A DNA stretch of 41,448 nt from Myxococcales bacterium (GTDB lineage: Bacteria; Myxococcota_A; Polyangia; Polyangiales; Houyiibacteriaceae). How positions within the stretch are numbered: the first letter of the stretch is position 1; each line of letters starts with the position of its first letter. The position numbers were made by a program, and so were the translations under genes. Shown one piece after another: positions 1,540 to 37,570 of the stretch. The stretch lies in assembly GCA_019637115.1 (NCBI GenBank), contig JAHBWH010000060.1, positions 1 through 41,448 of the forward strand, in the 5' to 3' direction. The notes beneath the pieces are model-generated. The model searched no databases. It saw only the letters and a program-made list of their open reading frames with translations, and was not told where the DNA came from.

Positions 1540-3701
1540 ATCGGCAGCGCTTCGAGCAGCGCCTGCAGGTTGCCTGCGTCGACGCCGCCGTCGCGTCCGC
1601 CGCCCGGGCCCGCGTCGGGCACGCCCGCGTCGACCGGGAGCGTGCGCGGGGTGAGGTTGCCGAGCCGATCGACGTTCACCGCGCTGCCGTCCGGCATGAG
1701 GTAGGCGCCGACCTCCTCGTCGTACTTCGGGATCGCGTGCGGGATCGGCGTGCGTCGCTCGCCGAGGATGCGCCCCTCGAGCACGTTGACGCGGAGCGGC
1801 TCGACGAGCTCGAAGACGTAGCCGCCTTGGTCGATGGCCATGGGGAAGACCTGACCGTCGACCTCGAGGTTGCGGCGGAAGGCCATCGGCTGTTGACCGC
1901 GGCGCACGTGGGGGCGGTGGCGGAGCACGAAGCTCATCAGCCGGACCGCGATGTGGTTGTGCATGCGGTGACAGCCGTGCGAGTGGCGGCGCATGATCGA
2001 CATGTAGTCGACGCTGCCGTGCATGCGGATGCCTTCGTCGTGGCCGAGGCGGATGCGGCCGTCGGGGAGCTCGGCGAAGGTCAGGTGGTAGGCCGCCACG
2101 AGGCCGTAGGCGCTCGCGTACGAGGGGCCGGTCTCGTGGTAGTTCACGAGGTACTTCGGCTCACCCGGCCGGCCGCGGCGGGGGTTGCGGCGCAAGAGCT
2201 CACGGTGCGGGGTGCTCTCGGGCGGGAGCCAGACGGGGGCGGCGACGATGCGCGACCAGACGCGCTCTCCGACCTCCGACTGCTTGTACTTCCACATCAC
2301 GGTCCCGTCGACGAGCTCGCTGCGCCAGCCGCCGATCGTGGTCCCGAAGCGCGCCAGCGCGATCCGCTGGCCGCGGTATTGCGTGAAGACCGTGACGCGC
2401 GGCCGGCGCTGCACGCCCTGCGCGCGCTGGCGCCCCTGCGCGTCGAAGGGGAAGTCGTACCAGACGTCGCCGCGATCGACCTCGATCGAGAGCGCCATCT
2501 CGGGCCCGTAATACTCGGGGAGCGCGGGCCCTCGGAGCGCGACCCGGACGCTGCGGCCGGGCGTGAGCTCGCCGAGTCCCTCGAGGAAGGCGAGCGTCGA
2601 CTCGGGGGTCTCGAGCCCGAGCGACGAGACGATCGCCTCGCGCAGGCCCTCCTCGAGGTTCGGGATGGGGTGGCGCTGCCCGTCCGCGCCCACGAAGGTC
2701 CCCGTGCGGCTTCCGTCCTCGATGACCGCCATGGTGTGCATCGCGCGCTCGGTGAGCATGCGCAGCACCGCCTCGCGCTCCACCTCGGTCGGGCTCTTGC
2801 GGAGCATCTCGATCGTCTCGCGGCCGATGAAGCCCCAGCCGAAGACCCGGTGGCGTCGCTCGAACTCGGCGAGCGCTTCGTGGGTCACCCAGTCGAGCGC
2901 GCCACGCTCGGGCCGAGCGCGTCCTTCGTAGTAACCCTCGCATTGCAGGCGCGCTTGGGCAGCTCGGATCGCCTCCACCTCGTCGCGGCGGTCGCGATAC
3001 TCGCGGAGCTTGCCGAGCTCTCGGTCGGGGATGCGGCTCTCGTCGAGCTCCGCGTCCGCCGCGACGTGTTGCTGCTCCATCCAGCGCCGCACCTGGCGCT
3101 CGAGGGTGTTGAAGCGCCGCGCGTCGCGCCGGGCGCGGTCGTTGTCTCGGTACGCCACGAAGCCCGTGAAGCGCTCGAGCGGGCCGAGGTCGAGGTCGGC
3201 CGCGCAGCTCAGCGTGCTCGCCTTGCGGAAGCGCTCGCGAAGCAGCCCGAGCGTCGGGGGGATGCCGTAGAGCTCGAGGTATTTGTCGCGCGATGCGCGC
3301 TCGCCGTGGTGGTCGTCGGGGATCTCGCCCCGCGCGAGCGCCAGGTAGGTGTCGCGGAAGGCGTTGGGGATCTGCTCGCCGGTCTGAGGGTCGCGGTCGC
3401 TGAAGAGGTAGGGGACCCAGTCCTCGCCGAGCTCGAGCACGACGAGGCCGTCGCTCTCCGCGGCGCGGCGCTCGATCTCGCGGGCCACTTCGCCGCCCTC
3501 CCAGAAAGGCACGGGATCGCGGAGCGCTTCGGTCGGCTGCGCCACCTCGGCCGGGGGCGCGTCCACCGGCTCAGGCTCCTCGATGTCCTCCTGGGTCGGC
3601 TCGGGCTCGGCCGACGAGAAGCGATCGCACGCGGTCGCGACGAGGAGGAGGGCGAGCGAGGTCTGGAGCAGTCGCGTCACGTCAGCTTCAACTTTGAGCA
3701 T
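1536..3701 (-). CDS. L,D-transpeptidase (YkuD) lipoprotein with peptidoglycan-binding-like segment
   Basis: A protein of about 721 aa. The ATG at 3701 is chosen because it has GAGG upstream and places a signal peptide directly before a lipobox (LVATAC), giving a lipoprotein; the frame stays open further upstream to 3818. After a Pro/Glu-rich linker and a long helical region, a stretch near residues 265-300 resembles a peptidoglycan-binding repeat (pattern TxxALxxFxRRH...G.IGxxT). The C-terminal part holds the YkuD catalytic signature SHGCHR near residue 574, preceded by MHGS, so the catalytic Cys and His are present. Such enzymes form 3-3 crosslinks or attach proteins to peptidoglycan in the periplasm. 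At more than 700 aa it is much longer than the usual 300-500. The small 3' gene overlaps it by 4 nt. Confidence 0.88.
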   Translation of the reverse strand: MLKVEADVTRLLQTSLALLLVATACDRFSSAEPEPTQEDIEEPEPVDAPPAEVAQPTEALRDPVPFWEGGEVAREIERRAAESDGLVVLELGEDWVPYLFSDRDPQTGEQIPNAFRDTYLALARGEIPDDHHGERASRDKYLELYGIPPTLGLLRERFRKASTLSCAADLDLGPLERFTGFVAYRDNDRARRDARRFNTLERQVRRWMEQQHVAADAELDESRIPDRELGKLREYRDRRDEVEAIRAAQARLQCEGYYEGRARPERGALDWVTHEALAEFERRHRVFGWGFIGRETIEMLRKSPTEVEREAVLRMLTERAMHTMAVIEDGSRTGTFVGADGQRHPIPNLEEGLREAIVSSLGLETPESTLAFLEGLGELTPGRSVRVALRGPALPEYYGPEMALSIEVDRGDVWYDFPFDAQGRQRAQGVQRRPRVTVFTQYRGQRIALARFGTTIGGWRSELVDGTVMWKYKQSEVGERVWSRIVAAPVWLPPESTPHRELLRRNPRRGRPGEPKYLVNYHETGPSYASAYGLVAAYHLTFAELPDGRIRLGHDEGIRMHGSVDYMSIMRRHSHGCHRMHNHIAVRLMSFVLRHRPHVRRGQQPMAFRRNLEVDGQVFPMAIDQGGYVFELVEPLRVNVLEGRILGERRTPIPHAIPKYDEEVGAYLMPDGSAVNVDRLGNLTPRTLPVDAGVPDAGPGGGRDGGVDAGNLQALLEALPM

Positions 3702-3923
3702 GTGGATCCTCGGCGCAAGTTTCAGGCGCGATTCACGCACCGGGCGTGCCACCACGAAGTGCCCGCAAATGTCGACGTTTTCGCGAAGTCGCGGCGTCTC
3801 GCGTGTCAGCCTTGCCACGCAGCGTGTCGGTGTTTGTTCGCTGCGCGCCTCGCGCTTCGCTCACGAGGCGCGCTCTTTCCTCGCGCATGCCACCGGGGGC
3901 GTGTGTTCGGCGGGTCGGGGGAC

Positions 3924-3929
3924 TACGCT
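3924..3929 (+). promoter_or_regulatory. Putative -10 element TACGCT of a near-leaderless transcript
   Basis: TACGCT lies 6 nt before the GTG proposed as start of the anion transporter. It is one of eight TANNNT hexamers placed 6-9 nt before start codons in this window. No convincing -35 is visible. Confidence 0.35.
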
Positions 3930-3935
3930 CGCCGC

Positions 3936-5330
3936 GTGGGTGAGCGCAGACGGACCATGGGGCTCGCGTTGGCGGTCGCCGTCGGCGTGGGGCTCTCGCT
4001 CGCGCCGCTGCCCCTCGAGCCGAAGGCGCATCGGCTCGCGGGGGTCTTCGGTGCCGTCGTCCTGCTCTGGGTCACCGAGGCGCTCCCCATCCCCGTCACC
4101 GCGCTGCTCATCGCGCCCCTCCTCGTCGTCACCGGCGTGGCGGGCCCGAAGGAGGCCTTCGCGCCCTACGCCGACCCGCTCCTCTTCCTCTTCGTCGGCG
4201 GGTTCTTCATCGCCGCCGCGATGGCGCGTCACGGACTCGACGTGCGCATGGCCTCGCGGCTCGTCTCCGCCCCGTGGGTCGCGGGCCGGCCAGCGCGCGT
4301 GCGCGTGGCCTTCATGGTCACGGCCGCGCTGCTCTCGATGTGGATCAGCAACACCGCCACGACGGCCATCCTCGCGCCCATCCTCCTCGGCACCTTCGAG
4401 CGCGATGACCCCCGCGCGACGGGCTCGCTGCTCGCGGTCGCCTACGCCGCGAGTCTCGGGGGGCTCGGGACGATCGTCGGCAGTCCCCCGAACCTCATCA
4501 CCGCCCGCTTCCTTCAGGACGTGACCGGCGAGCCCTTCGGCTTCGTCGCCTGGCTCTCCGTCGGCTTCCCGGTCGCCGTCGGCCTGCTCGTGCTCGCGTA
4601 CTTCGTCTCCGCGCGGCTCGCGCCGCCTGGGGCGACCGTCTCGATCGCGCCGCCCCCGTCGACGGCGCCGGCGCGCGCGTGGAGTCGGGGCGAGAAGGCC
4701 ACCATGACCGCGTTCGCGCTCGCCGTCCTCGGATGGAGCGCGCCCGAGCTGCTCGCCGCCGCGGGGGTCCCCGGAGGAGAGGCGCTCTCCCGTGCGCTCC
4801 CCGGCGGCGTGGTCGCGCTCTTCGCGTCCGTGGTGCTCTTCGTCGCGCGCGACGAGCGCGGGGACCTGGTCCTGCCGTGGCGCGAGGCGGCCGGCATCGA
4901 CTGGGGCATCATCATGCTCTTCGGGGGCGGGATCTCGCTCGGACATCAGATGTTCGAGACCGGCCTCGCCGAGGTGATCGCGCGCGGCGTCGTCGGCGCG
5001 ACCGGGCTCGAGAGCGCGCTCGCGCTGATCGCCCTGCTCACCGTCTTCACCATCTTCTTCACCGAGGTCTGCTCGAACACTGCCTCCGCCAACATGATCG
5101 TGCCGATCGCGATCGCGATCTCGGTCGAGATCGGGGTCTCGCCGATGGGACCGGCGCTCGCCGTCGGCCTCGCCGCGAGCTGCGCCTTCATGTTGCCGAT
5201 CGCGACGGGCCCCAACGCCATCGTCTTCGGCACCGGCCGCGTGCCCCAGCGCACGATGATGCGGCACGGGCTCGTGATGAACCTCTGCTGCGCGGCGGCG
5301 CTGATCGCCTTCGCCGCCCTCGTCTCGTGA
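3936..5330 (+). CDS. SLC13/DASS-family anion (dicarboxylate or sulfate) symporter
   Basis: 464 aa, a typical length for the divalent anion:Na+ symporter family. It is an inner-membrane protein with about 11-12 hydrophobic segments. Family hallmarks are present: an early TEALPIP motif, the substrate/sodium loop SNTATT in the first half and SNTASAN in the second half (the inverted-repeat SNT motifs), and GSPPNLI nearby. The GTG at 3936 is preferred because it gives a basic N-terminus before the first membrane helix and has a TANNNT hexamer 6 nt upstream; an ATG at 3957 is the alternative. The exact substrate (succinate, citrate, sulfate) cannot be read from sequence. It is divergent from the L,D-transpeptidase and followed 52 nt later by an esterase gene. 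Confidence 0.9.
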   Translation: MGERRRTMGLALAVAVGVGLSLAPLPLEPKAHRLAGVFGAVVLLWVTEALPIPVTALLIAPLLVVTGVAGPKEAFAPYADPLLFLFVGGFFIAAAMARHGLDVRMASRLVSAPWVAGRPARVRVAFMVTAALLSMWISNTATTAILAPILLGTFERDDPRATGSLLAVAYAASLGGLGTIVGSPPNLITARFLQDVTGEPFGFVAWLSVGFPVAVGLLVLAYFVSARLAPPGATVSIAPPPSTAPARAWSRGEKATMTAFALAVLGWSAPELLAAAGVPGGEALSRALPGGVVALFASVVLFVARDERGDLVLPWREAAGIDWGIIMLFGGGISLGHQMFETGLAEVIARGVVGATGLESALALIALLTVFTIFFTEVCSNTASANMIVPIAIAISVEIGVSPMGPALAVGLAASCAFMLPIATGPNAIVFGTGRVPQRTMMRHGLVMNLCCAAALIAFAALVS

Positions 5331-5382
5331 GGGCGCGCCAGCTCTGGAGCGCGCGACCCCGCGGCCGTGGTATTCCTCGACC

Positions 5383-6402
5383 GTGGCTCCCTCCCCGCCC
5401 CTCGATCGGCGCCTGCGCATGCGGATCGCGCGGCTGCTCACCACCCACGCGCTCGCTGACCCCCTCGTCCGCCGTCCGATCCGCGACGGCGCGCTCGAGC
5501 TCGACCCCTCGCTGCAGCTCTTGCTCCAGCTGCAGCGGCTCTCGGGGGAGGGCGGCTTCGAGACCAAGGGCTCCGTCGCTGCGGCCCGAGCCGCCTACCA
5601 CGAGCTCGTCGGCGGGTTCGAGGCCCCCACGCCAGCGCCCGCGATGTCCATCGATCGCGCCCTCGCGGGCGTGCGCGTGCGGGTGCATCGACCGCCCGGG
5701 CCGGGCCCTTTCCCCGCGCTCGTCTACTTCCACGGGGGCGGCTTCGTCGTCGGCGATCTCGACACCCACGAGCACCTCGCCCGGCGCTTCTGCCTGGGCG
5801 CCGCCGCGGTCGTCGTCGCGGTCGATTACCGGCTCGCGCCCGAGCACCCCTTCCCCTGCGGGCTCGACGACTGCGTCGCGGTCACCCGCGCCGTGCTGGC
5901 GGAGGCCGACGCGCTCGGCGTCGATCCCGCGCGCGTCGGGCTCGCGGGCGACAGCGCGGGCGGCAACCTCGCGCTCGTGGTCGGCCAGGTCGTCGAGGGC
6001 GTGCGCTTTCAGCTGCTCATCTACCCGACCACGAACGTCACCGCCGAGACGGCCTCGAAGGCGCGCTTCGCGCGAGGCTTCGGGCTCGATCGCCGCACCG
6101 TCGATTGGTTCACGGACCACTATCTCGCGGGGGGCACCGACCCGCGCGATCCGCGCGTCTCGCCGCTGCTCTCGTCGGAGCTCGGGCGCTGCCCGCGCAC
6201 GCACGTCGCCGCGGCCGGCTTCGACGTGCTCCGCGACGAGGGGCTCGCCCTCGTGACGCGGCTGCGCGAGCTCGGGGTGCCGACGACCCAGACGCTCCAC
6301 GAGCGGCTGATCCACGGCTTCGTCCACCTGACCCGGATCCCCTCTTGCGACGCCGCCGTGGCGGAGCTCGTCGAGATCGCGAGGAGGGGGCTCGATGCGT
6401 GA
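5383..6402 (+). CDS. Alpha/beta hydrolase, HSL (hormone-sensitive lipase) family esterase
   Basis: 339 aa. The oxyanion-hole motif HGGGF is near residue 116, and the nucleophile motif GDSAGG near residue 189 is the GDXG signature of the hormone-sensitive lipase family. An Asp in GFDVLRDEG and a His in LIHGFVH near the C-terminus complete the catalytic triad. It is expected to hydrolyse short- to medium-chain esters in the cytoplasm, as no signal peptide is visible. The GTG at 5383 is used; an ATG at 5419 is possible and would remove 12 residues. The last 8 nt overlap the next gene, so the two are probably co-transcribed. Confidence 0.9.
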   Translation: MAPSPPLDRRLRMRIARLLTTHALADPLVRRPIRDGALELDPSLQLLLQLQRLSGEGGFETKGSVAAARAAYHELVGGFEAPTPAPAMSIDRALAGVRVRVHRPPGPGPFPALVYFHGGGFVVGDLDTHEHLARRFCLGAAAVVVAVDYRLAPEHPFPCGLDDCVAVTRAVLAEADALGVDPARVGLAGDSAGGNLALVVGQVVEGVRFQLLIYPTTNVTAETASKARFARGFGLDRRTVDWFTDHYLAGGTDPRDPRVSPLLSSELGRCPRTHVAAAGFDVLRDEGLALVTRLRELGVPTTQTLHERLIHGFVHLTRIPSCDAAVAELVEIARRGLDA

Positions 6403-7225
6403 GGGAGAGCCGAGCGCGACCTCGATGCTCGTCGCGCTGGCGCGCGCGCTCGTCCCGGCGCAGGGCGGCCGCGACCCTTACGCGGCGCGGCTCCTCCCCG
6501 GCCGCTGGGCGCGGCTCGCGGACGCGGGGGCGCACGCGCCCGTCCGATCTGCTGCGCGCGTGCTCTCGGGCGGCATGGTCGACCACCTCGCGCTGCGCAC
6601 CGCCGCCATCGACGCCTTCGCGCGCGAGGCGGTCGCCGCGATGGAGCGCGAGGCGGGGGAGGCGCAGCTCGTGATCCTCGGCGCGGGCCTCGACGCGCGC
6701 GCGTGGCGTCTCGGGCTCGGGGCAAAGGTCTTCGAGGTGGATCACCCCGCCACCCAGACGCTCAAGGCGGCCCGTGCCCCACGAGAGCGCGCGCCGCGCT
6801 TCGTCCCAGTGGACTTCACCCGCGACTCGCTCGACGACGCCTTGAGCGCTGCGGGTCACGAGCGCGCGCGCCCGACCGCGTGGATCTGGGAAGGGGTGAC
6901 GATGTACCTGCCCACCGCGGCCGTCGACGCAACGCTCGGCGTGATCGCGCGCCGGAGCGCGCGCGGCAGCCAGCTCGCGATGACCTACGTCGATCCGAGC
7001 GCCGTCCCGCTCGCGCCGCTCGTCCGGCGCGCCTTCGGGCTGCTCTTCGGCGAGCCGCTCGAGGCCGGGTTCACGCCCGCCGCGCTGCGGGCGCTGCTCG
7101 CCGAGCACGGGCTCGGCGTCGTGCGCGACGGCGCGTCCGATACGTGGCCGCGCGTCCTCGGCGGCCACCCGGCGCTCGCCGCCGTCGTGCGGGCCGAGCG
7201 CCTGGTGATCGCCGAGAAACGCTGA
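6395..7225 (+). CDS. Class I SAM-dependent methyltransferase, LCMT/PPM-like family
   Basis: 276 aa. The SAM-binding glycine motif is in VILGAGLDARAWRL near residues 92-105, followed by an acidic strand (FEVDHP) that should bind the ribose. The motif WIWEGVTMYLP is characteristic of the leucine carboxyl methyltransferase-like family to which many bacterial proteins annotated as TIGR00027-type methyltransferases belong. Some members methylate small carboxyl-containing metabolites; the substrate here is unknown. Its start overlaps the esterase end by 8 nt, so a joint role in small-molecule tailoring is possible but inferred. Confidence 0.85.
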   Translation: MREGEPSATSMLVALARALVPAQGGRDPYAARLLPGRWARLADAGAHAPVRSAARVLSGGMVDHLALRTAAIDAFAREAVAAMEREAGEAQLVILGAGLDARAWRLGLGAKVFEVDHPATQTLKAARAPRERAPRFVPVDFTRDSLDDALSAAGHERARPTAWIWEGVTMYLPTAAVDATLGVIARRSARGSQLAMTYVDPSAVPLAPLVRRAFGLLFGEPLEAGFTPAALRALLAEHGLGVVRDGASDTWPRVLGGHPALAAVVRAERLVIAEKR

Positions 7226-7404
7226 ACCGCGTCAGGGCGTCAGGTCGGCGACGAGCGAGGGGGGCTCGACCGCGCTCGGGAAACCGAGCCCGAGCCGGCC
7301 CGCGACGTTCGTGCCAGGTCGCCAGCCCCTCCCCCACGGGGCATGGAGCCCTGCGGGGCCCCTCCTACGAGCCTTCGCTCGCCGCGGCCGTAAGCCGTCG
7401 GCCA

Positions 7405-7962
7405 TCAGCCGTCGGCCATCGCCGCGCTGGCGCCGACGTAACCGGCCGTCGTGATCAGCTCGGCCATCTGGTCGTACGCGGCGCGGTCGGGCGCGGGCGT
7501 GGTCGCGAGGCCGTCGACGTAGCGGTTGAACATGCAGAACGCCGCCGCGATGAGGACGGTGTCGTGGATCGCGACGTCGTCCGCGCCGGCGACGCGCGCA
7601 GCCTCGATGGTCTCGGGGCGCACCTCGCGACCGCTGCGCTGGACCTCGGCCGCGATCGCGAGGAGGTGGCGGAGCTGGTTCGAGACGGGGGCGGTGTCCG
7701 GCGCCTCGAGGGCCGCCTCGACGACCTCGTAACCTCCGTCGAGCTGGTGGGCCGCGAAGGCCGCGTGCGAGTCGCAGCAGAACCGGCATCCGTTGCGCGA
7801 CGAGACGAACGCCGCGATGAGCTCGCGTTCGCCGCGCGAGAGCGACGACGGACCGCGGAGGAGCGCCTCGGCGAGCATGTTGAGCGGACCCGCGGTCTCG
7901 GGGCGGAAGGCGAAGAGCCCGAGGATGCCGGGGACGGAGGGGGGAACCGGGACGTGGGACAT
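7405..7962 (-). CDS. AhpD/carboxymuconolactone decarboxylase-like (peroxidase-related) protein
   Basis: 185 aa. The central sequence GCRFCCDSHA contains the CxxC...H arrangement of the AhpD-like fold and the 'uncharacterised peroxidase-related' subfamily; AhpD uses such a thiol pair to reduce alkylhydroperoxide systems. It is helical, with no signal peptide. The ATG at 7962 has GAGG upstream (GAGGTTCC), which decides the start. It converges with the methyltransferase gene, leaving a 179-nt spacer in which only short imperfect repeats are visible. The physiological reductant and substrate cannot be inferred. Confidence 0.85.
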   Translation of the reverse strand: MSHVPVPPSVPGILGLFAFRPETAGPLNMLAEALLRGPSSLSRGERELIAAFVSSRNGCRFCCDSHAAFAAHQLDGGYEVVEAALEAPDTAPVSNQLRHLLAIAAEVQRSGREVRPETIEAARVAGADDVAIHDTVLIAAAFCMFNRYVDGLATTPAPDRAAYDQMAELITTAGYVGASAAMADG

Positions 7963-18117: not shown

Positions 18118-18125
18118 CGCGCGGG

Positions 18126-18131
18126 ACCATA
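18126..18131 (-). promoter_or_regulatory. Putative -10 element TATGGT
   Basis: On the minus strand this hexamer is 8 nt before the ATG at 18117 of the kynureninase-like gene. It fits the TANNNT-start arrangement. Confidence 0.35.
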
Positions 18132-18159
18132 GCGGCGCGAGGGCGCGATGACGAGGCGC

Positions 18160-18537
18160 TCAGCGCAGGACGTCGTCGACCGACGAGGCGAGGAGGACGC
18201 GCTCGGTGAAGCGGTCGAGCTCTTCGAGCGAAGCGGCGGAGACGCGGGCCGTCGTCGACTCGTCGAGGGGTCCGAATTTGAGCGATAGGAGCTTGAGGAG
18301 GACACACGCGGCCTGCTGGTGGCGGCCTTCTTCACGACCTTCTGCGCGGTAGGCGTCTGCGATGGTTCTCATGGAGTGCTCCTGGGAAGGCGGGCTGAGC
18401 TGGGCGAGGGTGTCGTCGAGGAGGGAGCGGTCGTCGTCGCGGAGCGCAGACGCAAGGTAGCGCAAGATCGTGCCGATGGCCTCGGCGCCCGAGCGTGTGC
18501 GGAGGAGCTCGTCGAAGAGGTGAGCGACGTGCCGCAC
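18160..18537 (-). pseudogene. C-terminal remnant of a Rpn-family (PD-(D/E)XK) recombination-promoting nuclease
   Basis: About 125 codons remain. The sequence from AYRAEGREEGRHQQA through LLKLLSLKFGPLDE and SLEELDRFTERVLL to the end is the familiar C-terminal tail of Rpn/putative-transposase proteins in myxobacterial genomes. The N-terminal nuclease domain with its catalytic Asp, Glu and Lys is missing. The frame stays open upstream to 18633, but there it runs across the 3' end of the HNH gene and no longer resembles the family. Possible starts are a GTG at 18537 or internal ATGs. It is likely a fragment created by recombination with the HNH locus, though a stand-alone regulatory tail cannot be excluded. 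Confidence 0.7.
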
Positions 18538-18577
18538 GGTCTTTGGTCCATCTCGGCGCGAGACGCTCCGGTGCTCG

Positions 18578-19597
18578 TCAGACAGCGCTCGAGCGGTCGG
18601 ACCTCTCGAATCGGTCTGCCGCTTCCGAGTCACGCGCGCGCGTGTCGCGGCGCTCTCGTCCTTCGACGATCACGATCGGCGTGCGGCCGATCTCCCAGCG
18701 GAGGTTCGGCGCTTCTCCGCGGATCCGGAGGCGCCCCTCGTGCTCGCCTTCGAGGTGGCAGAAGTCGCAGGGGCTCGTGAGGTTCTCCGGCTCGTCACCG
18801 CCGCGATGCGCACGATACCGCACGTGGTGGCACGTCACGTTGCGGCTGTTGCAGACGGGGCTCGTGCAGCGCATCCGGTCGCGCACGTGAATGCCGTGGT
18901 ACTTCCGCTCCTCCGCGATCTGCGGCAACGCGACGTGGAAGAACGCCGTCGCCGCGAAGCGCAGGAAGCTGCCCGGCAGGCCCGCGCGCTCGTAGCTCAC
19001 CTCGAGCTGCCGGAAGTACAGCGCGACGTCTTCGGGGCAGCGCACGCGCAAGGTCGTGTGGCCGAAGCGGCGCCTACCACTCGCTGCCCTCACGTCGCTT
19101 CCGTCGGCGCTTCCGGCGGCCTCGACCCGACGATGCTCATCACACCCGAACATCTGCGGCGCTTCGGGCGTGACCGTGCGATCCGTACGTTCGAGCGTTG
19201 CGTCGTCGCTGGCGACATCGACTCGACGGTGGTCGTCACACCGGAACATCTCCGGCGCTTCGGGCGCAGCCGCGCGATCCGCCCGCCCGAGCGCGGCGTC
19301 ATCGCTGGCGACCTTGACGCGACGGTGGTCATCACACCCGAACATCTGCGGCCTTTCGGGTGCGACCGTGCGATCTGCACGTTCGGGCGTCGCGTCGCCA
19401 CCGGTGACCTCGAGGCGACGCTCATGACTCCCGAACATCTGCGGGCCGTCCGACGACGCCGAGCGAAAAGCGTCCACCCCCTGGCTCGCGGACGAGGCCC
19501 GCCCGAGCCCACGTGAGAGATGGAAGAGCGCGTCATCCGCGCCTTCGAGCGCGTCGCGCGTCAGCCCCTCGCCCCAGTCGACCCCGCCCCTCGCCAC
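18578..19597 (-). CDS. HNH endonuclease with Cys-coordinated HNH domain and internal 32-residue repeats
   Basis: 339 aa from GTG 19597, with GAGG 6 nt upstream and an excellent promoter. The C-terminal half has an HNH domain near residues 240-290: CTSPVC, HHVRYRAHRGG, DEPENL and CDFCH, i.e. two zinc Cys pairs around the catalytic His and Asn, followed by the family's WEIGR..IVIVEGR tail. The domain appears catalytically complete. The region around residues 50-165 is unusual: 3.5 copies of a 31-32-residue unit with the core PQMFGCDDHRRV. In related myxobacterial proteins, as I remember them, this position holds a long helical domain, so the repeats may have replaced or expanded a linker. It lies between two gene remnants, suggesting a mobile or rearranged locus. 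Confidence 0.8.
   Translation of the reverse strand: MARGGVDWGEGLTRDALEGADDALFHLSRGLGRASSASQGVDAFRSASSDGPQMFGSHERRLEVTGGDATPERADRTVAPERPQMFGCDDHRRVKVASDDAALGRADRAAAPEAPEMFRCDDHRRVDVASDDATLERTDRTVTPEAPQMFGCDEHRRVEAAGSADGSDVRAASGRRRFGHTTLRVRCPEDVALYFRQLEVSYERAGLPGSFLRFAATAFFHVALPQIAEERKYHGIHVRDRMRCTSPVCNSRNVTCHHVRYRAHRGGDEPENLTSPCDFCHLEGEHEGRLRIRGEAPNLRWEIGRTPIVIVEGRERRDTRARDSEAADRFERSDRSSAV
19148..19452. repeat. 96-bp tandem repeat inside the HNH gene
   Basis: The word GAACATCT(G/C)CGG recurs at 19148, 19244, 19340 and 19433, giving periods of 96, 96 and 93 bp. Flanking bases are also conserved (TCACACC before, CGCTTCGGG after). The period is a multiple of three, so copies preserve the reading frame. 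Copies differ at about 10-25% of positions. Confidence 0.85.
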
Positions 19598-19615
19598 GTC
19601 GAACCTCGTGCAAGG

Positions 19616-19644
19616 ATACTAGTGCGATACTGAACGGATGTCAA
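19616..19644 (-). promoter_or_regulatory. Near-consensus sigma70 promoter for the HNH gene
   Basis: On the minus strand TTGACA (19644-19639) is followed by exactly 17 nt and TAGTAT (19621-19616). This puts transcription start near 19609, about 12 nt before the GTG at 19597 and just ahead of its GAGG. The local sequence is clearly AT-richer than its surroundings. Confidence 0.75.
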
Positions 19645-19684
19645 GTTATGGGCTGGGCGGACGGCTCGGAGACGATGCGTCGAG

Positions 19685-20094
19685 CTAAGAGACGACGAAG
19701 CCGCCGAGGCCGAGCGCGGTGCCCTCCCCGAGCCCGAAGGGCTCGGTCCAGCGGAGCACCTGCCCAAGCCGGGCCGTCGGACCTTCGAACCGTGCGTGAC
19801 CGAGCGTGCCCTCGACGCGGTGGCGGCGTCGTTGTCGGGAGGACCAACGTTCGCCACGGAAGCGACGCCACTGCTGCGCTGCCACGACGACGTCGTGGGC
19901 GAGGTGGTCGGCGAGATCGCCGAGGTGCAGCTCGGCGACGGGGTCGCCGAGCGCCTGCCGGAGAGCGACGAGGCGACGTACCGCCGCGAGCGCGAGGTCG
20001 ACCACGTGCGGCTCACGGAGGAGCTCGCCTACGTCGACGGAGATCAGGTGCGAGGGTTCTTGATGGAGCAGCGGCGATGGGAGATCGATCCGCC
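19685..20094 (-). pseudogene. Cas6-like CRISPR endoribonuclease remnant (C-terminal half, no usable start)
   Basis: The open minus-strand frame runs from a stop near 20185 to the stop at 19685. It has no ATG, GTG or TTG before a GTG at 20005. The recognisable part starts with PSPLLHQEPS and continues through a helical segment (VDLALAAVRRLVAL) to RWSSRQRRR...VEGTLGHARFEG and the Gly-rich end TEPFGLGEGTALGLGGF. Cas6/RAMP proteins carry the same order of signals: a 'PL' strand, a hydrophobic helix before a basic segment, RYSxRQ, GxxGxxxxxG and a C-terminal GxGTxxGLG loop that binds the crRNA hairpin. The N-terminal ferredoxin-like half with the usual catalytic His is absent. It is probably a decayed gene; from 20005 a 106-aa product is conceivable. 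No CRISPR array or other cas gene is in the window. Assignment by eye only. Confidence 0.6.
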
Positions 20095-20148
20095 GGGGGC
20101 GTGAGTGTTGCGGGAGGAGCGGTGAGACGGGACTGGCGGGGGCGGGCG

Positions 20149-20177
20149 CTGACGACTTCGCCGGGATGTCGTAGCCT
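20149..20177 (+). promoter_or_regulatory. Putative promoter CTGACG-17-TAGCCT
   Basis: TAGCCT (20172-20177) lies 7 nt before the ATG at 20185, with CTGACG 17 nt upstream of it. It would give a nearly leaderless transcript of the lipoprotein gene. Confidence 0.4.
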
Positions 20178-20184
20178 CCCGTTC

Positions 20185-21021
20185 ATGATTCGCGGGATGC
20201 TTGGGTTGGGGTTGATGTTGGGCTTGGCTTGCGGCTTCGGCTGCGGCGGTGACGACGGTCCGGGGGACGTCGACGCAGGGGGGGGAGGCACGGACTCAGG
20301 GGGCGGCGAGGTAGATTCTGGTGGTGGCGAGGTGGACGCTGGCGACGGGATGGACGCCGGGACTGGGATGGACGCTGGGAGCGGGATGGACGCCGGGACC
20401 GTGGATGCAGGACCGATCTTGCCCGACTACGACGCCGGGAACCCGTTTGGGGACGCTGGGACGCTCGGGCCGCCGGAGTGGGCAGACCTGACCATTCACA
20501 CCGATGGCACCGAGTGCGACGCGCTCGATCCGTGTGGGGGCAACGAGGTGGGCACCTGGGATGTCAGCGGCGGGTGCGTCGAGGTCCCGGTGCCCGCTGA
20601 TCTCATGCGTTGCCCGGGAGCCACGATCTCCGCGTCGGGGCGAGCGCGCGGTCGTGTCGTCTTCGACGGCGAGGTCGCGGTGCGGCGCGCCCAGGCCGAG
20701 ATCGAGGCGTCGATCTTCATCCCGTCGATCTGCGCGCTCTTCGCGGGCGGGTGCGGCGCGATCGAGGATGGGCTTCGCATGGCGAGCGAGATGTCGCGGT
20801 GCGTGACGACGGCGTCGAGCGACTGCCTCTGCGCGCTCCGCGTGGTGAACGTCATCGACGACGGCGACGCCTACACGATCGAGGGCAACCAGATCGTGTC
20901 GGCCGCCCTCTCGAAGCGGTGGAACTACTGCGTCGAGGGTGGCGAGCTCCGTTACGAGGACGTGAGCGAGAGCGGCGAGCGCGAGCCGGGCATCATCGAG
21001 CTGACGCGCCGTGGGGAGTGA
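20185..21021 (+). CDS. Hypothetical lipoprotein with Asp-Ala-Gly repeat linker
   Basis: 278 aa from ATG 20185. The signal peptide is rich in Gly/Leu/Met and contains Cys at residues 16 and 20; either may be the lipidated Cys. Residues about 25-85 are a low-complexity linker of DAG, DSGGGE and GMDAG(T/S) units, a common style in myxobacterial outer-membrane lipoproteins. The folded part (after about residue 95) has around ten Cys, including CDALDPC, CVEV, RCPG, ICALFAGGC and CLCAL, so several disulfides are likely. No family recognised. The last 11 nt overlap the next gene. Confidence 0.75.
   Translation: MIRGMLGLGLMLGLACGFGCGGDDGPGDVDAGGGGTDSGGGEVDSGGGEVDAGDGMDAGTGMDAGSGMDAGTVDAGPILPDYDAGNPFGDAGTLGPPEWADLTIHTDGTECDALDPCGGNEVGTWDVSGGCVEVPVPADLMRCPGATISASGRARGRVVFDGEVAVRRAQAEIEASIFIPSICALFAGGCGAIEDGLRMASEMSRCVTTASSDCLCALRVVNVIDDGDAYTIEGNQIVSAALSKRWNYCVEGGELRYEDVSESGEREPGIIELTRRGE
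20347..20400. repeat. 18-bp tandem repeat (3 copies) encoding GMDAG(T/S)
   Basis: Units of the form GGGATGGACGCCGGGACT start at 20347, 20365 and 20383 with one to three differences. They encode the flexible linker of the lipoprotein and are a plausible site of copy-number change. Confidence 0.8.
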
Positions 21022-30883: not shown

Positions 30884-32023
30884 ATGAGCATCGAAGTCCG
30901 CGAGCACGCCCTCGGGTCGAAGGAGGCGATTCGGGCCTTCTTCGAGGTCCAAGACCTCGTCTATGCAGGCGACCCTCACTACGTCCCACCCCTGCGGATG
31001 GAGCTCGCGGACCGGCTCACGCCGGGCAAGAACCCACTCTGGGAGCACGCCGAGGGGGTGCTCTTCACGGCGCACCGGGACGGCAAGCTCGTGGGGCGCG
31101 CGTCCGCGCAGATCGACCGCGAGCACCTGCGGATCCACCAGGACGACGCAGGCTTCTTCGGCTTCTTCGACACCATCGACGACCAGGCGGTCGCCGACGC
31201 TTTGCTCGAACGCGCCGCCGCCTGGCTTCGCGCGCGCGGCATGAAGGTGATGCGCGGGCCCTTCAGCTTCACCATCAACGAAGAGTGCGGCCTGCTCGTC
31301 GAGGGCTTCGACACGCCTCCCGCGATCATGATGGCGCACCACCGGCCCTACCAGCAGCACCTCCTCGAGCGCGCGGGCTTCGTGAAGGCCAAGGATCTCC
31401 TCGCGTGGAAGTATCTCGTCGAGGAGCCGCCGCCGCGCGCCGCCCGCGCGTGGGAGCAGGTTCGAGGGCTCCCCGAGGTCCGCTTCCGCGACGTCAATCC
31501 GTCGCGCATGCGTGAGGAGCTCGACCACATCCTCCACATCTTCAACGACGCTTGGGCCAACAACTGGGGCTTCGTCCCGGCCACGGATGCCGAAGTCGAG
31601 AAGATGGCGAAGGACTTCCAGCTCCTCATCGATCCACGCCTCGCCTTCTTCGCCGAGGTGAAGGGCAAGCCGATGGGCATGGTCATCTGCCTGCCGAACC
31701 TCTCCGAGCCCACGGGCGACCTCGACGGCAAGCTCTTCCCCTTCGGTTGGGCGAAGCTCGTCTGGCGCCTGAAGGTCGCGAAGAGCGTGAAGTCCGCGCG
31801 CCTGATGCTCCTCGGCATCCGGCGAGAGCTGCGTGGCCAGAAGCGCTACGGGCCCCTGTCGACCGCCATGTACGCGGAGCTGGCCTACCGCGGCCTCCGT
31901 GCCGGTTACCAGTGGGCGGAGCTGAGCTGGACGCTGGAGGACAACCGCCCGATCAACCTCGGCATCCAGGCGATGCGGGGGAAGGTGTACAAGACGTACC
32001 GGGTGTACGAGCGGGCGCTTTGA
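30884..32023 (+). CDS. GNAT-superfamily (YghO-like) acyltransferase
   Basis: 379 aa. A GNAT-like fold is suggested by the N-terminal FFEVQDLVYAGDPHYVPPLRMEL segment, seen in bacterial N-acyltransferases of the YghO-like group, and by the ending WTLEDNRPINLGIQAMRGKVYKTYRVYER, which matches the conserved C-terminal part (ENN..N.... MG....K.Y..Y). Cytoplasmic, no signal peptide. The acyl donor and acceptor are unknown; relatives often occur near lipid genes, which is not the case here. The ATG at 30884 has no clear Shine-Dalgarno. The GC-poorer kpsF-like gene begins 30 nt after its stop. Confidence 0.78.
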   Translation: MSIEVREHALGSKEAIRAFFEVQDLVYAGDPHYVPPLRMELADRLTPGKNPLWEHAEGVLFTAHRDGKLVGRASAQIDREHLRIHQDDAGFFGFFDTIDDQAVADALLERAAAWLRARGMKVMRGPFSFTINEECGLLVEGFDTPPAIMMAHHRPYQQHLLERAGFVKAKDLLAWKYLVEEPPPRAARAWEQVRGLPEVRFRDVNPSRMREELDHILHIFNDAWANNWGFVPATDAEVEKMAKDFQLLIDPRLAFFAEVKGKPMGMVICLPNLSEPTGDLDGKLFPFGWAKLVWRLKVAKSVKSARLMLLGIRRELRGQKRYGPLSTAMYAELAYRGLRAGYQWAELSWTLEDNRPINLGIQAMRGKVYKTYRVYERAL

Positions 32024-32053
32024 GCGTCGCCGCCGATGGGCAGCGAGGATCGC

Positions 32054-32986
32054 ATGTCGAAAACCGGACCCTCACTCGACGATGTCGCAGCCGAAGCGCG
32101 CGCGAGCCTTCGCGAGCAAGCCGCAGCGATCACGACGCTTTCCGAAAGGATCGATGAGCGCTTCACGCGTGCCGTAGAGATGATGCACTCCACGTCGGGT
32201 CACGTCGTCGTTGCGGGACTGGGAAAGTCCGGACACGTTGGCGCGAAGATCGCTGCGACACTCGCTTCTACTGGGACGCCGAGTTTTTTCGTTCATGCGG
32301 CTGAGGCGTTTCACGGCGACCTCGGCATGGTGACCAACAGAGATAGTGTGATCCTGATCTCGTACAGCGGGGAGACGGCTGAGGTCGCTGGGTTGCTTCC
32401 TCATTTGCGCGATCGGGCCGTTCCGATGATTGCGCTCGTGGGCAACCCATCATCGACCCTGGCGACGGGGGTCGATGTTGCATTGGACGTGTCGGTCGAG
32501 CGCGAGACCGATCCGAACGACCTCGCGCCGACTTCATCCACCTTGGTGACGCTGGCAATGGGCGACGCCTTGGCGATGGCGCTGGTGCGGATCCGCGGTT
32601 TCCAACCCGACGATTTCGCGCGCCTGCACCCGTCCGGGTCGCTAGGGCGGCGCTTGTCGAGGGTGGCGGATCATATGGGTCCGCCGCCGCCCGTTCTGGA
32701 CCCGATGGACACCATCGCGGATGCACTTCTCGCCTTAGCGCGGTCGAGTGTACCCTTCGTTGCCGTTGTCTCCCACGGCGTCCTCTTGGGGACAGTGAGT
32801 GAGGTCGACCTGAGAGATGCGATCGCGAGACGCGATGCCTTGCGAAATCGAGTTGGAGGTTTTGTCGTTCGCGAAGTTCCGTGCATCAGCGTGAGCGATC
32901 TGATCGAAAGTGTTCCGGCTGAAACGACGATCGTATTAGACGAGCGAGGTGTCATCGTCGGAACGTTTGCTGCTGGGACTCGATGA
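32054..32986 (+). CDS. kdsD: Arabinose-5-phosphate isomerase (KpsF/KdsD family)
   Basis: 310 aa from ATG 32054, chosen over 32036 because GAGG sits 7 nt upstream. An SIS domain (residues about 40-175) has VAGLGKSGHVGAKIAATLASTG, FHGDLGM and ISYSGET for sugar-phosphate binding, and the active-site region LHPSGSLGRRL is typical. Two CBS domains fill residues about 195-310; the second is somewhat shortened. The enzyme interconverts ribulose-5-phosphate and arabinose-5-phosphate, the first committed step of Kdo synthesis for LPS or capsule linkers. GC content is visibly lower than in the preceding gene. It converges with the KpsC-type operon and likely serves it; KpsF-type (capsule) or KdsD-type (LPS) cannot be separated by sequence alone. 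Confidence 0.92.
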   Translation: MSKTGPSLDDVAAEARASLREQAAAITTLSERIDERFTRAVEMMHSTSGHVVVAGLGKSGHVGAKIAATLASTGTPSFFVHAAEAFHGDLGMVTNRDSVILISYSGETAEVAGLLPHLRDRAVPMIALVGNPSSTLATGVDVALDVSVERETDPNDLAPTSSTLVTLAMGDALAMALVRIRGFQPDDFARLHPSGSLGRRLSRVADHMGPPPPVLDPMDTIADALLALARSSVPFVAVVSHGVLLGTVSEVDLRDAIARRDALRNRVGGFVVREVPCISVSDLIESVPAETTIVLDERGVIVGTFAAGTR

Positions 32987-33054
32987 GTCTCGCGGCAAGT
33001 GCGCGCAGTTGCACAGCATTGAGGGCGAGATGACCGAGCCGGATTCCGTGCGGG

Positions 33055-34299
33055 TCAATGGAGTGGCGCAATGGTCGTGGTGGGATACCGAGTCACTAAA
33101 AGATCGATGCCACCTCGGTGACCGATCGTTTCGGTCGGGCCGAGGTTGATATTTCGGCCGAGCGTTACGGGTCCATGGGGCCGCGGATGACGCACCAGGA
33201 AATCTGAACCGACAATGATTCGCGGGCCATCGCCCATTGGATCCACGAACCAGTTGTTCGCAACGACTTGATCGCCCGACAGGATGACTATGTCGCGGAG
33301 ATTGTTTCGGAACAAGTTGCCAAGAATGGAGACTCGCCGCACGTCGTCAAATTGCTCTCCCGAGTCCGTAGTGGGATCCGTGCACATGGTGCGGAAACAA
33401 TCGTGTTCGCGACTGGAGAGACCTTGTCGTGCGGCGACCATCACCGCAGCACCGTCCGGGTGGGTGTGTCCGCGGAAAACGTTGGCTCTGATCTCGACGT
33501 TGCGAACGGGCCACGGGCGTGGCGTTTCCGATTCCCCACAGTTCTTGTAGAGAGCTATCGCAGCGTACCTATTGTTCTCGAGGATGTTCTCTTCGATCCG
33601 ATGATTGGATGAGGCGTCTATAGCAATGCCCTCGCGGCCCAGAGAGCAGCCGGAATGTCCGTTGTTCGAGACAAGACTTCGTCGTACTGTGACGTCTGAT
33701 GAGTTGGCATCAATGTAGATTCCCGTTGTGGTAGAGTCCGATATTGTACACTGATCAATTGTGAAGCGTCGGGAGTGTGGGCCCACATAAATTCCGGCGC
33801 CTCCCGATCGTGAGACGACGACGTTCGTGATTCGAAAGTCCGATAGCGCTCGTTCTGTGCTCTCTTCTGCGACGTTCGGACCCGTAAGGACGAGTCCGGC
33901 GGCGTAGTTCGCGAAGCCGCAATTGCGGATCGCAACGTGTGCGATGCCGGGCGTGGACCGATCGACGTCCAGGGCGCGAGAGATCGACCCTCCTCGAATC
34001 GAGCCATCGAAACGAACGCCATCACAGTCGAGCGTCACATGCCCGTCGCGGACTTTGAATCGGAAGCCGTGCACAGGCGCCGTTGTTCTGCACAATCGAA
34101 CGGACGCGCCCGCCATCCCCGCACCGTTACCGAGGTGTACCAACCGGATTCCGTCGACGAGCTGGTACGGCAGATCATGCACGTTGATGCAAGAAGGTCG
34201 CGCGGACACGACGACTTCCTCTGACAGCGAAAGCGGCCGTTGAGCGGTCGTGCACGCGCTGAGTGCACTGATGGCGCTAACCAATGCTGCGGATCGCAC
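33055..34299 (-). CDS. Right-handed parallel beta-helix lipoprotein
   Basis: 414 aa from GTG 34299; a TTG at 34305 is the alternative. It overlaps the upstream KpsC-type gene by 23 nt. Signal peptide with lipobox ALSAC near residue 16. The body has repeated short strands of the type seen in beta-helix proteins (DFRITNVVVSRSGGAGIYV, FTIDQCTISDSTTTGIYI, VTVRRSLVSNNGHSG, HRIEENILENNRYAAIAL), i.e. the NosD/pectate-lyase-like PbH1 repeats. Such exported proteins are often polysaccharide lyases, hydrolases, epimerases or binders. No catalytic site can be named. As the last gene of the glycan operon it may modify or bind the polymer at the cell surface. Confidence 0.82.
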   Translation of the reverse strand: MRSAALVSAISALSACTTAQRPLSLSEEVVVSARPSCINVHDLPYQLVDGIRLVHLGNGAGMAGASVRLCRTTAPVHGFRFKVRDGHVTLDCDGVRFDGSIRGGSISRALDVDRSTPGIAHVAIRNCGFANYAAGLVLTGPNVAEESTERALSDFRITNVVVSRSGGAGIYVGPHSRRFTIDQCTISDSTTTGIYIDANSSDVTVRRSLVSNNGHSGCSLGREGIAIDASSNHRIEENILENNRYAAIALYKNCGESETPRPWPVRNVEIRANVFRGHTHPDGAAVMVAARQGLSSREHDCFRTMCTDPTTDSGEQFDDVRRVSILGNLFRNNLRDIVILSGDQVVANNWFVDPMGDGPRIIVGSDFLVRHPRPHGPVTLGRNINLGPTETIGHRGGIDLLVTRYPTTTIAPLH

Positions 34300-35800
34300 G
34301 TACAATTTTGGCGTCTCGGAAGAAGGAGCGAGGATCTCGTTGTAGCTTTCGGAGCTTTCTTCGAGCTACTTCCAGGACGGCTGCGGGGGGTTGGGGTTTA
34401 TCTGAGGCGGCGTCACGCGTTCTCGGTGGTCGAATCTCCGCACGGCCCTCGATGCGACGTCGGATGGACGCAACGCCCGATGGTCGGTCAGTAACGCAGT
34501 GGTATTGAAGATACTTGGTGAGAAACTCGTGCAGCTTATCAAGCTGAGCGAGGGTCAAGTGAGCCGAATGGCCGGTCGAGTGCACATGGGTGATGAAGTC
34601 ATCAATTGATGAAAAATCGTCCGAGAAGCCCGCGTGACCGAAGAATGGAGTCCCGAACGTGCTGGGACGCATGCCGCAGTGGAGCGCGAGCTCGAGGCCT
34701 GCCTGCGAACTCAATAGGGCAACGCGGTCAGTGGCGCGACCCAGTATCATTAGGTTGTCGTTCTCGCGGAGCGCGAATCGGTCGCGGAGGTGTGGCGGAA
34801 GTTTGGTTCGAAACTGTTCGAGCGCGAGCTTTGTCTTGGGCGCACGAACATGGATCTTCTTGTGCTCCCATGGATGTCCCTTGAAAATGACATTGAAGTC
34901 CGTCTCGTTGAGGCAGCGAGTAACTAGCTCGCGATAAAAGGCAATCGTCGATAACCACCCTTGTCGTTGTTCAATGATAGAGAAGTCGTTGACAACCTGG
35001 CCGATGATTAGGAGCGTCGGGCGTTTAGGATCTGAGAACTCTGGAAGATCGGCATGGGTTGGTTGCTCGACGTTTTTGTTCTCCGCGAGATCGATCCTTT
35101 GAAGCGCCTTTGCAACGGCGCGATGACGTTCAACTAGGTGGTCTGGAAGCGCTATCGCGCTCCGAACGGTCCGGTGCCTGATGTCGCTGCGGTTCGCGAT
35201 TGGAGAGTAACGCTCTTCCAAGTAAAACTCGTGGCCAGTGAAAGTGGACTCGACTACCAACGACCGTGTTCGATAGAACCGACATAGCTCCATCAATGCA
35301 CGCGTGTAGATCATGGAACCGCTGAAGATTATCGCATGGCTAGCAGCGGGAGAAGGGGAGTCGAGGAACCGACCCATTTCCTCCAACCAGAACGCCGCGG
35401 CGGCAAGATTGTCGAGCAAGATATCGCGATCGGAGTCGTAGAGGCGTTGAAATACGTCGGGGGACCCTGCCGGGACCGGGTTCTGGTGCCAGTGGTCACG
35501 CGTCGCGAGCGAGAAACACAGCGCCTCAGAAGAGCATATCTTCCAGAGTTGAATCGGGGTGGTCTTGAACGTGCTTTGCCGTTCGTAGAGTTGATCGGCG
35601 TCGAGGTTCTCGAGCGGCCGTCGGTGCGGTTCGAGGCGTGGCCGAAATCGAGCGTAGTCGCCGAAGGCTTGTTTGAGTTCGCGATCTCCAGTGTGGGTAA
35701 CGGTGCGGCAGTCGCTCGAGTCGAAATATCGGAACAAAGAGGCAAAATTTCGGCGATGAATGTGGATGTCATCGGAGAGCAGGATGGTGCGCGTGGTCAT
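34277..35800 (-). CDS. KpsC/KpsS-type capsule glycosyltransferase (Capsule_synth family, putative beta-Kdo transferase)
   Basis: 507 aa, one GT-B module. The C-terminal signature SQAGLELALHCG followed by FGTPFFGHAGFSDD matches the KpsC/LpsZ pattern (GFEAL..G..V..(F/Y)G.PFY.GWGLT.D), and VIFKGHPWEH corresponds to the (K)PHP motif of the donor site. KpsC usually has two such modules (about 670 aa) and KpsS one of about 400, so this is a single-module member with an enlarged N-terminus (IIFSGSMIYTRALMELC). KpsC/KpsS build the poly-Kdo linker on phosphatidylglycerol for ABC-exported capsules. The nearby arabinose-5-phosphate isomerase supplies the Kdo pathway, which supports the reading. Its start overlaps the GT4 gene's stop by 4 nt. 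Confidence 0.75.
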   Translation of the reverse strand: MTTRTILLSDDIHIHRRNFASLFRYFDSSDCRTVTHTGDRELKQAFGDYARFRPRLEPHRRPLENLDADQLYERQSTFKTTPIQLWKICSSEALCFSLATRDHWHQNPVPAGSPDVFQRLYDSDRDILLDNLAAAAFWLEEMGRFLDSPSPAASHAIIFSGSMIYTRALMELCRFYRTRSLVVESTFTGHEFYLEERYSPIANRSDIRHRTVRSAIALPDHLVERHRAVAKALQRIDLAENKNVEQPTHADLPEFSDPKRPTLLIIGQVVNDFSIIEQRQGWLSTIAFYRELVTRCLNETDFNVIFKGHPWEHKKIHVRAPKTKLALEQFRTKLPPHLRDRFALRENDNLMILGRATDRVALLSSQAGLELALHCGMRPSTFGTPFFGHAGFSDDFSSIDDFITHVHSTGHSAHLTLAQLDKLHEFLTKYLQYHCVTDRPSGVASIRRRIEGRAEIRPPRTRDAASDKPQPPAAVLEVARRKLRKLQRDPRSFFRDAKIVRAIRSIG

Positions 35801-36762
35801 CGGCGTCCCTCTGCAATGCTGCGGTACAGGTTGACATAGCGCTCAACGACGTCAGTCCACGTTGGGACTCGCTCTGCGAGCGCAGCCGCGCCGCGGTCGA
35901 TGGCGACAGTAAGGCTATCGGACGGGTCAGAAAGCCGCATGATTCGGGGGGCGTCAGCTTCCGGATCCTCCGTCAAGAACAGCGAATCGTGGCCATCTGT
36001 CAGAAAGTCGGGGGCGAATCCGACTGGAGTGGCGAGTATGGGGGTGAGGGTCGCCATCGCCTCCGGGAGGTTGGCAGGGCCACCCTCGAAGGTGCTGCAC
36101 ATCAACAGGTAATCGATTGCTTCGTAGGCTTCTTGGAAGAGCCTATACGGGAGCCGCTCGTAGAGGCGAACCTGATAGCCGAGTTCGGCGAGGCTTTCCG
36201 CAGTGATGAGGCGGCGCTCGCCAACGAGCACGAAGTCGAAAAGCCGAGGATCAAGATGCTTGACGAGATCGCCAAGGTACGCCTCTCCTTTGAATCGCCG
36301 ATCGTAGTACTTTGAGAAGATGCCGAGCGTCGTGCGATTGTGTCCACGTCGTCGCGGTGAGGTGACTTTTGGCCTAAGCACGGCATCGTTGTACCCGTGC
36401 GGGATGACGGTCGTTGTGAGTACGCCTTGCGTTTTGAGGAACCGTTGTTGGCCACGGTTGAGGCACACAACGTGTGCTGCTTCGAGATACCGTGGGCGAA
36501 ATTTCTCGAAATCGAGCCACGGATCCGGATCGTACAGGTCGTGGTGAACGGTTGCGACAGAGCGCGCAGGGAGATGTGATTCTAGATGTGGGCGGTGGAA
36601 GTGATATATGTCGGCACGGGGGTCTGGGTGGATCGTGATCGTGTACCGAAGGTCGGGCGGTGAGTGCTTGTGAAAGTACTCGAAGATTGCGTTGAATATG
36701 CCTGAGACTGTCTCGCTCGAGAGTACGTGGTTGATCAGCATGGTTCTCACCGGAAGAGCCAT
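35797..36762 (-). CDS. GT4-like (GT-B) glycosyltransferase
   Basis: 321 aa. The C-terminal donor domain has STFEGGPANLPEAMATLTPILATPVGFAPDFL near residues 222-255, the E(x7)E motif of GT4 retaining glycosyltransferases, preceded by a basic segment (FSKYYDRRFKG) that binds the nucleotide-sugar phosphate. A short N-terminal domain contains IYHFHRPH. Cytoplasmic. It is somewhat short (GT4 usually 350-400 aa). The sugar transferred is unknown. ATG 36762 overlaps the methyltransferase gene by 16 nt and the following KpsC-type gene overlaps it by 4 nt, so the three are one transcriptional unit. Confidence 0.85.
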   Translation of the reverse strand: MALPVRTMLINHVLSSETVSGIFNAIFEYFHKHSPPDLRYTITIHPDPRADIYHFHRPHLESHLPARSVATVHHDLYDPDPWLDFEKFRPRYLEAAHVVCLNRGQQRFLKTQGVLTTTVIPHGYNDAVLRPKVTSPRRRGHNRTTLGIFSKYYDRRFKGEAYLGDLVKHLDPRLFDFVLVGERRLITAESLAELGYQVRLYERLPYRLFQEAYEAIDYLLMCSTFEGGPANLPEAMATLTPILATPVGFAPDFLTDGHDSLFLTEDPEADAPRIMRLSDPSDSLTVAIDRGAAALAERVPTWTDVVERYVNLYRSIAEGRR

Positions 36763-37475
36763 TCTCTCAGGCGACGTAGGTGGGTCAAGGCTGACTGGCG
36801 TTGCGGCGTGGGGCCGTGGCGCGCTGAGGTGTTGGCGATCCGAGCGATGGCGTCTGCTTCTTTGGCTACGCCCAAGTGCTCGCGGACATATCCGCGTCTA
36901 CGGCGTTCCCAATAGCCGATGAACTTGATCGAGTGCCGGCGGATGAAGACGGTCTCGAATCCGGGAAACATCTCGAATATGTCGTAGATGGTAAAGGATT
37001 GGAGGTGGTCTGTGCCGATGATGTCTTTTTGGTCGTAGGGGAAAGAGAAAAATGCGGCGTCGACGTTCTCCATTACTTTGGTCTTGAAGATGTGAAGCGT
37101 CGTGTCATCGAGGTGCTCCAGTACCTCAAGGGCTACGAGGAATGTTCCTGGTTTGAGTTCGTTGGCGAGTGTCTCGAGTGACGCCGGTTGAACTGCGAGT
37201 TCAAGGTTTGTGATCGTCCCGAAGTGGCGGCGTCCGTATTCAATCGCTCCCTCGCTCATGTCTACGCCCCGGAAACTCAGGTCGGGGCGGCTCTTCGCGA
37301 GGTGGCTCAGGCCCACTCCCACCCCGCAGCCCAACTCGACGACTTGCCCGTGGTCCGGCAGGAACTCGGCGGCGCGCTCATACCGGAAGCGCACGTAAGG
37401 CGGGACTTTCGTGAAGTCCGTGGTGGTCGTTCGGTACTGGCCGCGGGCTGCATCTCGGTCGGTAGAGGATGGCAC
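36747..37475 (-). CDS. SAM-dependent methyltransferase of the glycan operon
   Basis: 242 aa from GTG 37475. SAM motif VVELGCGVGVGLSHLA near residues 45-60, acidic loop FRGVDMSEGAIEYG, and post-motif VALEVLEHLDD typical of small class I (Methyltransf_11/23-like) enzymes. It is likely to methylate a sugar or lipid-linked glycan, judged only by its being first in the operon with two glycosyltransferases. The C-terminal tail is basic (RRRRGYVREHLG, then LTHLRRLREWLFR). Base composition is lower in GC than the flanking genome. No clear promoter was found in the 95-nt divergent spacer, where a TATCAC word lies shortly upstream. Confidence 0.83.
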   Translation of the reverse strand: MPSSTDRDAARGQYRTTTTDFTKVPPYVRFRYERAAEFLPDHGQVVELGCGVGVGLSHLAKSRPDLSFRGVDMSEGAIEYGRRHFGTITNLELAVQPASLETLANELKPGTFLVALEVLEHLDDTTLHIFKTKVMENVDAAFFSFPYDQKDIIGTDHLQSFTIYDIFEMFPGFETVFIRRHSIKFIGYWERRRRGYVREHLGVAKEADAIARIANTSARHGPTPQRQSALTHLRRLREWLFR

Positions 37476-37570
37476 CAGGGTGTGATAGGCGATTCTGGAA
37501 AAGTCGGCACGGATTTCGTCGTGGTGGCAGCTCGCTCGACCTCTGGTGACCGGGTGGTATCTACCGCGTC

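Follow-up and report, generated by a model that had tools for sequence, protein, structure and literature searches.

A most likely displaced and non-functional cas6 fragment of probable type III-B origin in a Myxococcales genome

The window analysed here, a stretch of 41,448 nucleotides from a Myxococcales bacterium (contig JAHBWH010000060.1), carries on its minus strand a cas6 gene of which only the 3' ~37-40% is left. We interpret this sequence as a non-functional, displaced relic of the cas6 of a type III-B system whose effector genes were lost, and assign a probability of roughly 87% to this account as a whole. The relic is most likely a dead pseudogene fragment of a known Cas6 kind, and nothing about it requires a new type of system. 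The features of the region are as follows.

18122 to 20184, no strand assigned: inserted block of ~2 kb between a kynureninase-like gene and a lipoprotein gene, absent from the related genomes G022 (same genus) and G017 (same family)
18160 to 18633, minus strand: Rpn tail (Transposase_31 and DUF4351), the last ~137 residues of a protein whose copy on contig C21 has 393 aa
18578 to 19618, minus strand: HNH nuclease relic, consisting of ~30 N-terminal residues and the C-terminal HNH part
19616 to 19644, minus strand: sigma-70-like promoter (TTGACA-17-TAGTAT), located past the 3' end of the Cas6 relic and ahead of the HNH gene
19688 to 20050, minus strand: Cas6 relic, the last ~114-121 residues with RWSSRQ and the glycine-rich loop, identified by profile, homology, tree and fold; it corresponds to the C-terminal RRM-like domain and is truncated at its 5' end
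20051 to 20184, no strand assigned: junction, made up of the insertion boundary and the region upstream of the lipoprotein gene, with no Cas6 homology

The original prediction held that a minus-strand frame encodes the C-terminal part of a Cas6-type protein devoid of its N-terminus, and this was borne out by profile, tree and fold. The frame runs without interruption from 20182 to the stop codon at 19685-19687 (165 codons), its first ATG, GTG or TTG is the GTG at 20005, and the motifs RWSSRQ, GTLGHARFEG and FGLGEGTALGLGGF quoted in the prediction are all present exactly. Homology to Cas6 extends from ~20029-20050 down to 19688, and the part of the frame between 20050 and 20182 is not Cas6. In profile searches the relic matched the PADLOC Cas6 profile PDLC01477 with an E-value of 4.4e-18 over positions 183-294 of 296. 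The comparison with Pfam PF10040 (CRISPR_Cas6), which had been suggested as a check, gave a partial domain match with an E-value of 5.3e-5 and 24.3 bits, 0.7 bits below the cut-off of 25 bits. NCBIfam yielded only a weak Cas6 match to the relic (E 0.057), and a PDB sequence search with the relic did not find Cas6 and returned chance-level matches only. A frame on the opposite strand (19796-20104, plus), favoured by a crude GC3-based caller, was set aside because the Cas6 homology lies on the minus strand.

Among 184 genomes of the same order, in which the window's own genome is G000, a full-length version, which the original prediction had proposed to look for, was found, together with its neighbours, in the metagenome-assembled genome of Sandaracinus sp. 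NAT131 (G017). This intact Cas6 of 306 residues matched the relic with an E-value of 4.4e-31, the last ~115 residues being 54% identical. Further intact homologues were retrieved from Sandaracinaceae ACE_MYX11 (G174), Myxococcales HKST-UBA22 (G023), Myxococcota SKYG91 (G062) and contig C182 of the window's own genome. In a tree of the C-terminal parts the relic groups with the NAT131 Cas6 (support 98/92), apart from the Cas6 proteins of C182, ACE_MYX11 and SKYG91. By these profile and sequence comparisons, the resemblance to Cas6 is far beyond chance; profile, tree and fold rule out an unrelated glycine-rich protein, which had been considered as another identity for the frame.

An intact Cas6 uses two RRM-like (ferredoxin) domains to cleave CRISPR transcripts inside the repeats. 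Its N-terminal domain supplies the catalytic histidine, and the C-terminal one contributes to RNA binding with its glycine-rich loop. Instead of two such domains, the relic covers only residues ~182-302 of the 306-residue NAT131 Cas6 in the alignment, a truncation relative to intact homologues that is characteristic of a pseudogene. The N-terminal domain is absent, and with it the HGALG stretch. All five intact homologues have the histidine of this stretch, which is the catalytic histidine of Cas6. The N-terminal half, or any other part of the relic's Cas6, was not found anywhere in its own genome. A model of the full-length Cas6 contains a strand at residues 174-179, in our reading the first one of the C-terminal domain, so that the truncation would fall at or inside this strand. 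With its N-terminal domain missing and the first C-terminal strand gone entirely or for the most part, the relic is unable to work as a Cas6.

The structure prediction proposed for the translated frame likewise pointed to Cas6: an AlphaFold model of the relic (mean pLDDT 81) has Cas6 structures as its best matches in the PDB, as does the model of the intact relative. Both the RxSxRQ motif and the glycine-rich GxGxGTxxGLG loop are retained, as RWSSRQ and GLGEGTALGLG, and the relic keeps all 11 positions conserved across the Cas6 proteins of the order. Three positions that are otherwise invariant differ in the relic from all five of its closest homologues. One of them is in the glycine loop, where the relic has glutamate in place of the lysine (GKGT) shared by the five closest intact homologues. 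These differences are by themselves no proof of decay, because two intact homologues depart from the rest at three positions of this kind as well.

These features bear on whether the fragment could be a working small protein, i.e. a catalytically dead RNA-binding Cas6 domain that, for example, binds repeat RNA and modulates its processing. The open frame with a GTG at 20005, the retention of most Cas6 signature residues and the model with its Cas6-like fold speak for such a protein. However, this GTG lies inside the C-terminal domain, past its first strand, and there is no start codon at the beginning of the domain. The only promoter-like site found within 19400-20400 is that at 19616-19644, located downstream and facing the HNH gene, and the want of a start codon and a promoter for the relic argues, on sequence grounds, against expression. 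Moreover, the loop lysine is exchanged for glutamate, part of the glycine loop is modelled with low confidence, the neighbouring genes are broken, and no second copy of the truncated form was seen at this locus, which is absent in the two relatives. We therefore consider a working protein very unlikely. The suggestion in the original prediction that a Cas6-derived domain may have taken on another job found no positive support, given the missing start and promoter, the loss of the catalytic domain and the change in the loop.

The frame contains no stop or frameshift across 121 codons, and the branch of the relic is only slightly longer than that of the intact NAT131 Cas6 (0.60 versus 0.46); the pairwise NG86 estimates are dN 0.40 and dS 0.67, with both branches mixed. 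The relic would accordingly be young or not visibly decayed, which counts against the reading as a dead fragment. The intact frame is, however, a weak counter-argument because GC-rich DNA rarely forms stops.

The kynureninase-like and lipoprotein genes that flank the ~2 kb block are direct neighbours in both G022 and NAT131. The block is most simply an insertion in the lineage of the window's genome, the alternative being loss in both relatives, and its absence from these two genomes implies that the Cas6 fragment was carried to its present site. As judged from this comparison, a CRISPR locus never stood here. Target-site duplications at the edges of the insertion are not definable, since the flanks are only ~66-78% alike between the genomes.

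All three genes of the block are fragments, and the HNH gene (18578-19618) and Rpn tail (18160-18633) lie where the original prediction located them. Compared with its intact paralogues of ~760-890 aa, the HNH gene is missing the central part, and its two retained parts are linked by a 96-bp tandem repeat of 3.5 copies (19115-19444). Both the HNH and the Rpn family are repeated in the genome. The longest frames of the HNH family measure ~760-890 aa, and about a dozen matches, mostly with 63-84% protein identity over the HNH part, are spread over contigs C279, C21, C12, C424, C380, C38, C33, C111 and C246; several of these copies carry stops or sit at contig ends. On C21 (L064, positions 1347-3988) a broken HNH gene is immediately preceded by an Rpn gene, and the same pairing of an Rpn (Transposase_31) gene with a broken HNH gene recurs at 18160-19618 of the window. 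It looks as though Rpn elements either insert themselves into HNH genes or move together with them.

The frequent location of HNH copies at contig ends in this assembly also raises the question of an artefact, in which a chimeric join at repeated HNH sequence brought the cas6 piece from another contig. This is a highly improbable explanation: the flanking genes are neighbours in G022 and NAT131, which indicates that the contig runs through the site correctly; no other HNH copy exceeds about 85% identity at the DNA level, and the missing half of cas6 is on no other contig.

A separate feature of the window is a block of low GC content at 32000-37500 (0.58 versus ~0.73), with genes for a SIS-CBS sugar isomerase-like protein, a beta-helix protein, a capsule-synthesis protein and a glycosyltransferase, and a methyltransferase-like frame. 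This block is probably a transferred surface polysaccharide cluster.

In NAT131 the intact cas6 is part of a complete type III-B locus in the order array (46 copies), cas2, cas1, PrimPol, TPR, cas6, cmr6, cmr4, cmr1, cmr3, cas10, Csx1. The window's own genome has a similar arrangement on contig C53 (L035, positions 1-7604), where an array, cas2, cas1, PrimPol (adaptation polymerase) and TPR are followed by a Csx1-like gene (CARF-HEPN-Csx20). The cas2, cas1, PrimPol and TPR products of C53 are 51-60% identical to their NAT131 counterparts, the relic being 54% identical, and the first 21 bases of the array repeat are common to both. Identity between the Csx1 proteins of C53 and NAT131 is only 23%, which weighs against a link of the C53 locus to the relic. 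Within the family the TPR gene was found only in the window's genome, NAT131 and HKST-UBA22, and cas6 adjoins it in the latter two. On C53 no cas6 or cmr gene was found between the TPR and the Csx1-like gene, and cmr fragments were found neither in the insertion nor on the tested part of C53 (4501-12000). A match to the NAT131 Cas10 was not found in the window's genome, whereas G025 and HKST-UBA22 have one. The C53 locus, in which cas6, cmr and cas10 were not detected, is apparently an orphan type III adaptation module.

No array or effector accompanies the relic as it would a functional Cas6, in agreement with its original description as a stand-alone gene: the window contains no repeat of the C53/NAT131 type, and in a whole-genome search RAMP-family genes were confined to contig C20. 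Neither an Rfam family nor a tRNA gene was found close to the relic. No other cas6 of the branch formed by the relic and NAT131 was found in the window's genome. Contigs C20 and C182, which are probably neighbours to judge from the gene order in ACE_MYX11, are read as a type III-D system with its own Cas6. Another contig, C92 (L034), carries an array of at least 20 repeats (GCTTCAACGGGGCCGTCGCCTCGCGGCGACGGAGAG) along with cas1 and a candidate type I-G set of large genes, and its end holds the N-terminus of an HNH-family gene. The earlier reading of the fragment as a relic of a lost CRISPR locus needs a qualification: that origin is favoured, but the locus did not stand in the window, and CRISPR-Cas systems persist elsewhere in the genome. 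A more specific role, in which a kept but catalytically dead Cas6 RNA-binding domain tunes crRNA processing for the III-D system or for the orphaned C53 array, appears very improbable.

We infer, as the simplest account, that the III-B effector genes were lost from C53 and that the tail of cas6 survived in the window. An ancestor would have possessed a III-B system resembling the one in Sandaracinus sp. NAT131. The part with cmr, cas10 and cas6 would then have been lost, leaving array, cas2, cas1, PrimPol and TPR on C53, and the cas6 tail would have moved into the window, probably via recombination among the repeated HNH/Rpn elements of the genome. The link between C53 and the relic is suggested by similar identity levels and by gene content, the two having no junction in common.

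CRISPR loci move between genomes, and the relic might instead have arrived by horizontal transfer together with the insertion, without ever having been in a III-B locus of this lineage and with no relation to the adaptation genes on C53. This possibility, clearly the less likely one, agrees with the absence of the block from the two relatives and with the finding that G022, which is only 89% complete, has neither a Cas6 nor a matching Cas10 or TPR gene. On the other hand, the other two genes of the block belong to families repeated in the same genome, matching adaptation genes occur on C53 at similar divergence, and no relatives of the relic were found in phage or plasmid records. Horizontal transfer contests only the origin of the fragment and leaves the verdict that it is dead unaffected.

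By itself the relic teaches little. As a fossil of a displaced III-B cas6 it suggests that the effector of a CRISPR system can vanish while the array and the spacer-acquisition part stay, and it cautions annotators that a match to Cas6 does not equal a CRISPR locus. Whether the III-D Cas6 processes the C53 array in trans is a fair question, provided that this array is still transcribed.

In Myxococcus, loss of myxobacterial III-B loci has left residual sequence behind, and myxobacterial III-B clusters are reported to lack Cas6 and the adaptation module often (PMC11237760). The residual III-B and MxI-B sequences described there remain in the region of the locus, whereas the cas6 tail reported here lies elsewhere in the genome. 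Among known families, the relic matches the C-terminal part of PF10040 and PDLC01477 and has nothing that corresponds to their N-terminal part. The III-D Cas6 of the same genome (C182, with C20) belongs to the same Cas6 clade, with ~42% identity over the C-terminal part, but is intact (300 aa), adjoins a CARF-HEPN gene and has a locus most like the III-D locus of ACE_MYX11. The closest counterpart is the Cas6 of the III-B locus of Sandaracinus sp. NAT131 (G017:C59, PABA01000048.1), which is sister to the relic in the tree and has RxSxRQ, GxLG and FGLGxGTALGLG in common with it. In contrast to the relic, that protein is intact, with 306 aa, the N-terminal domain and the histidine, and is encoded within a full CRISPR-Cas locus.
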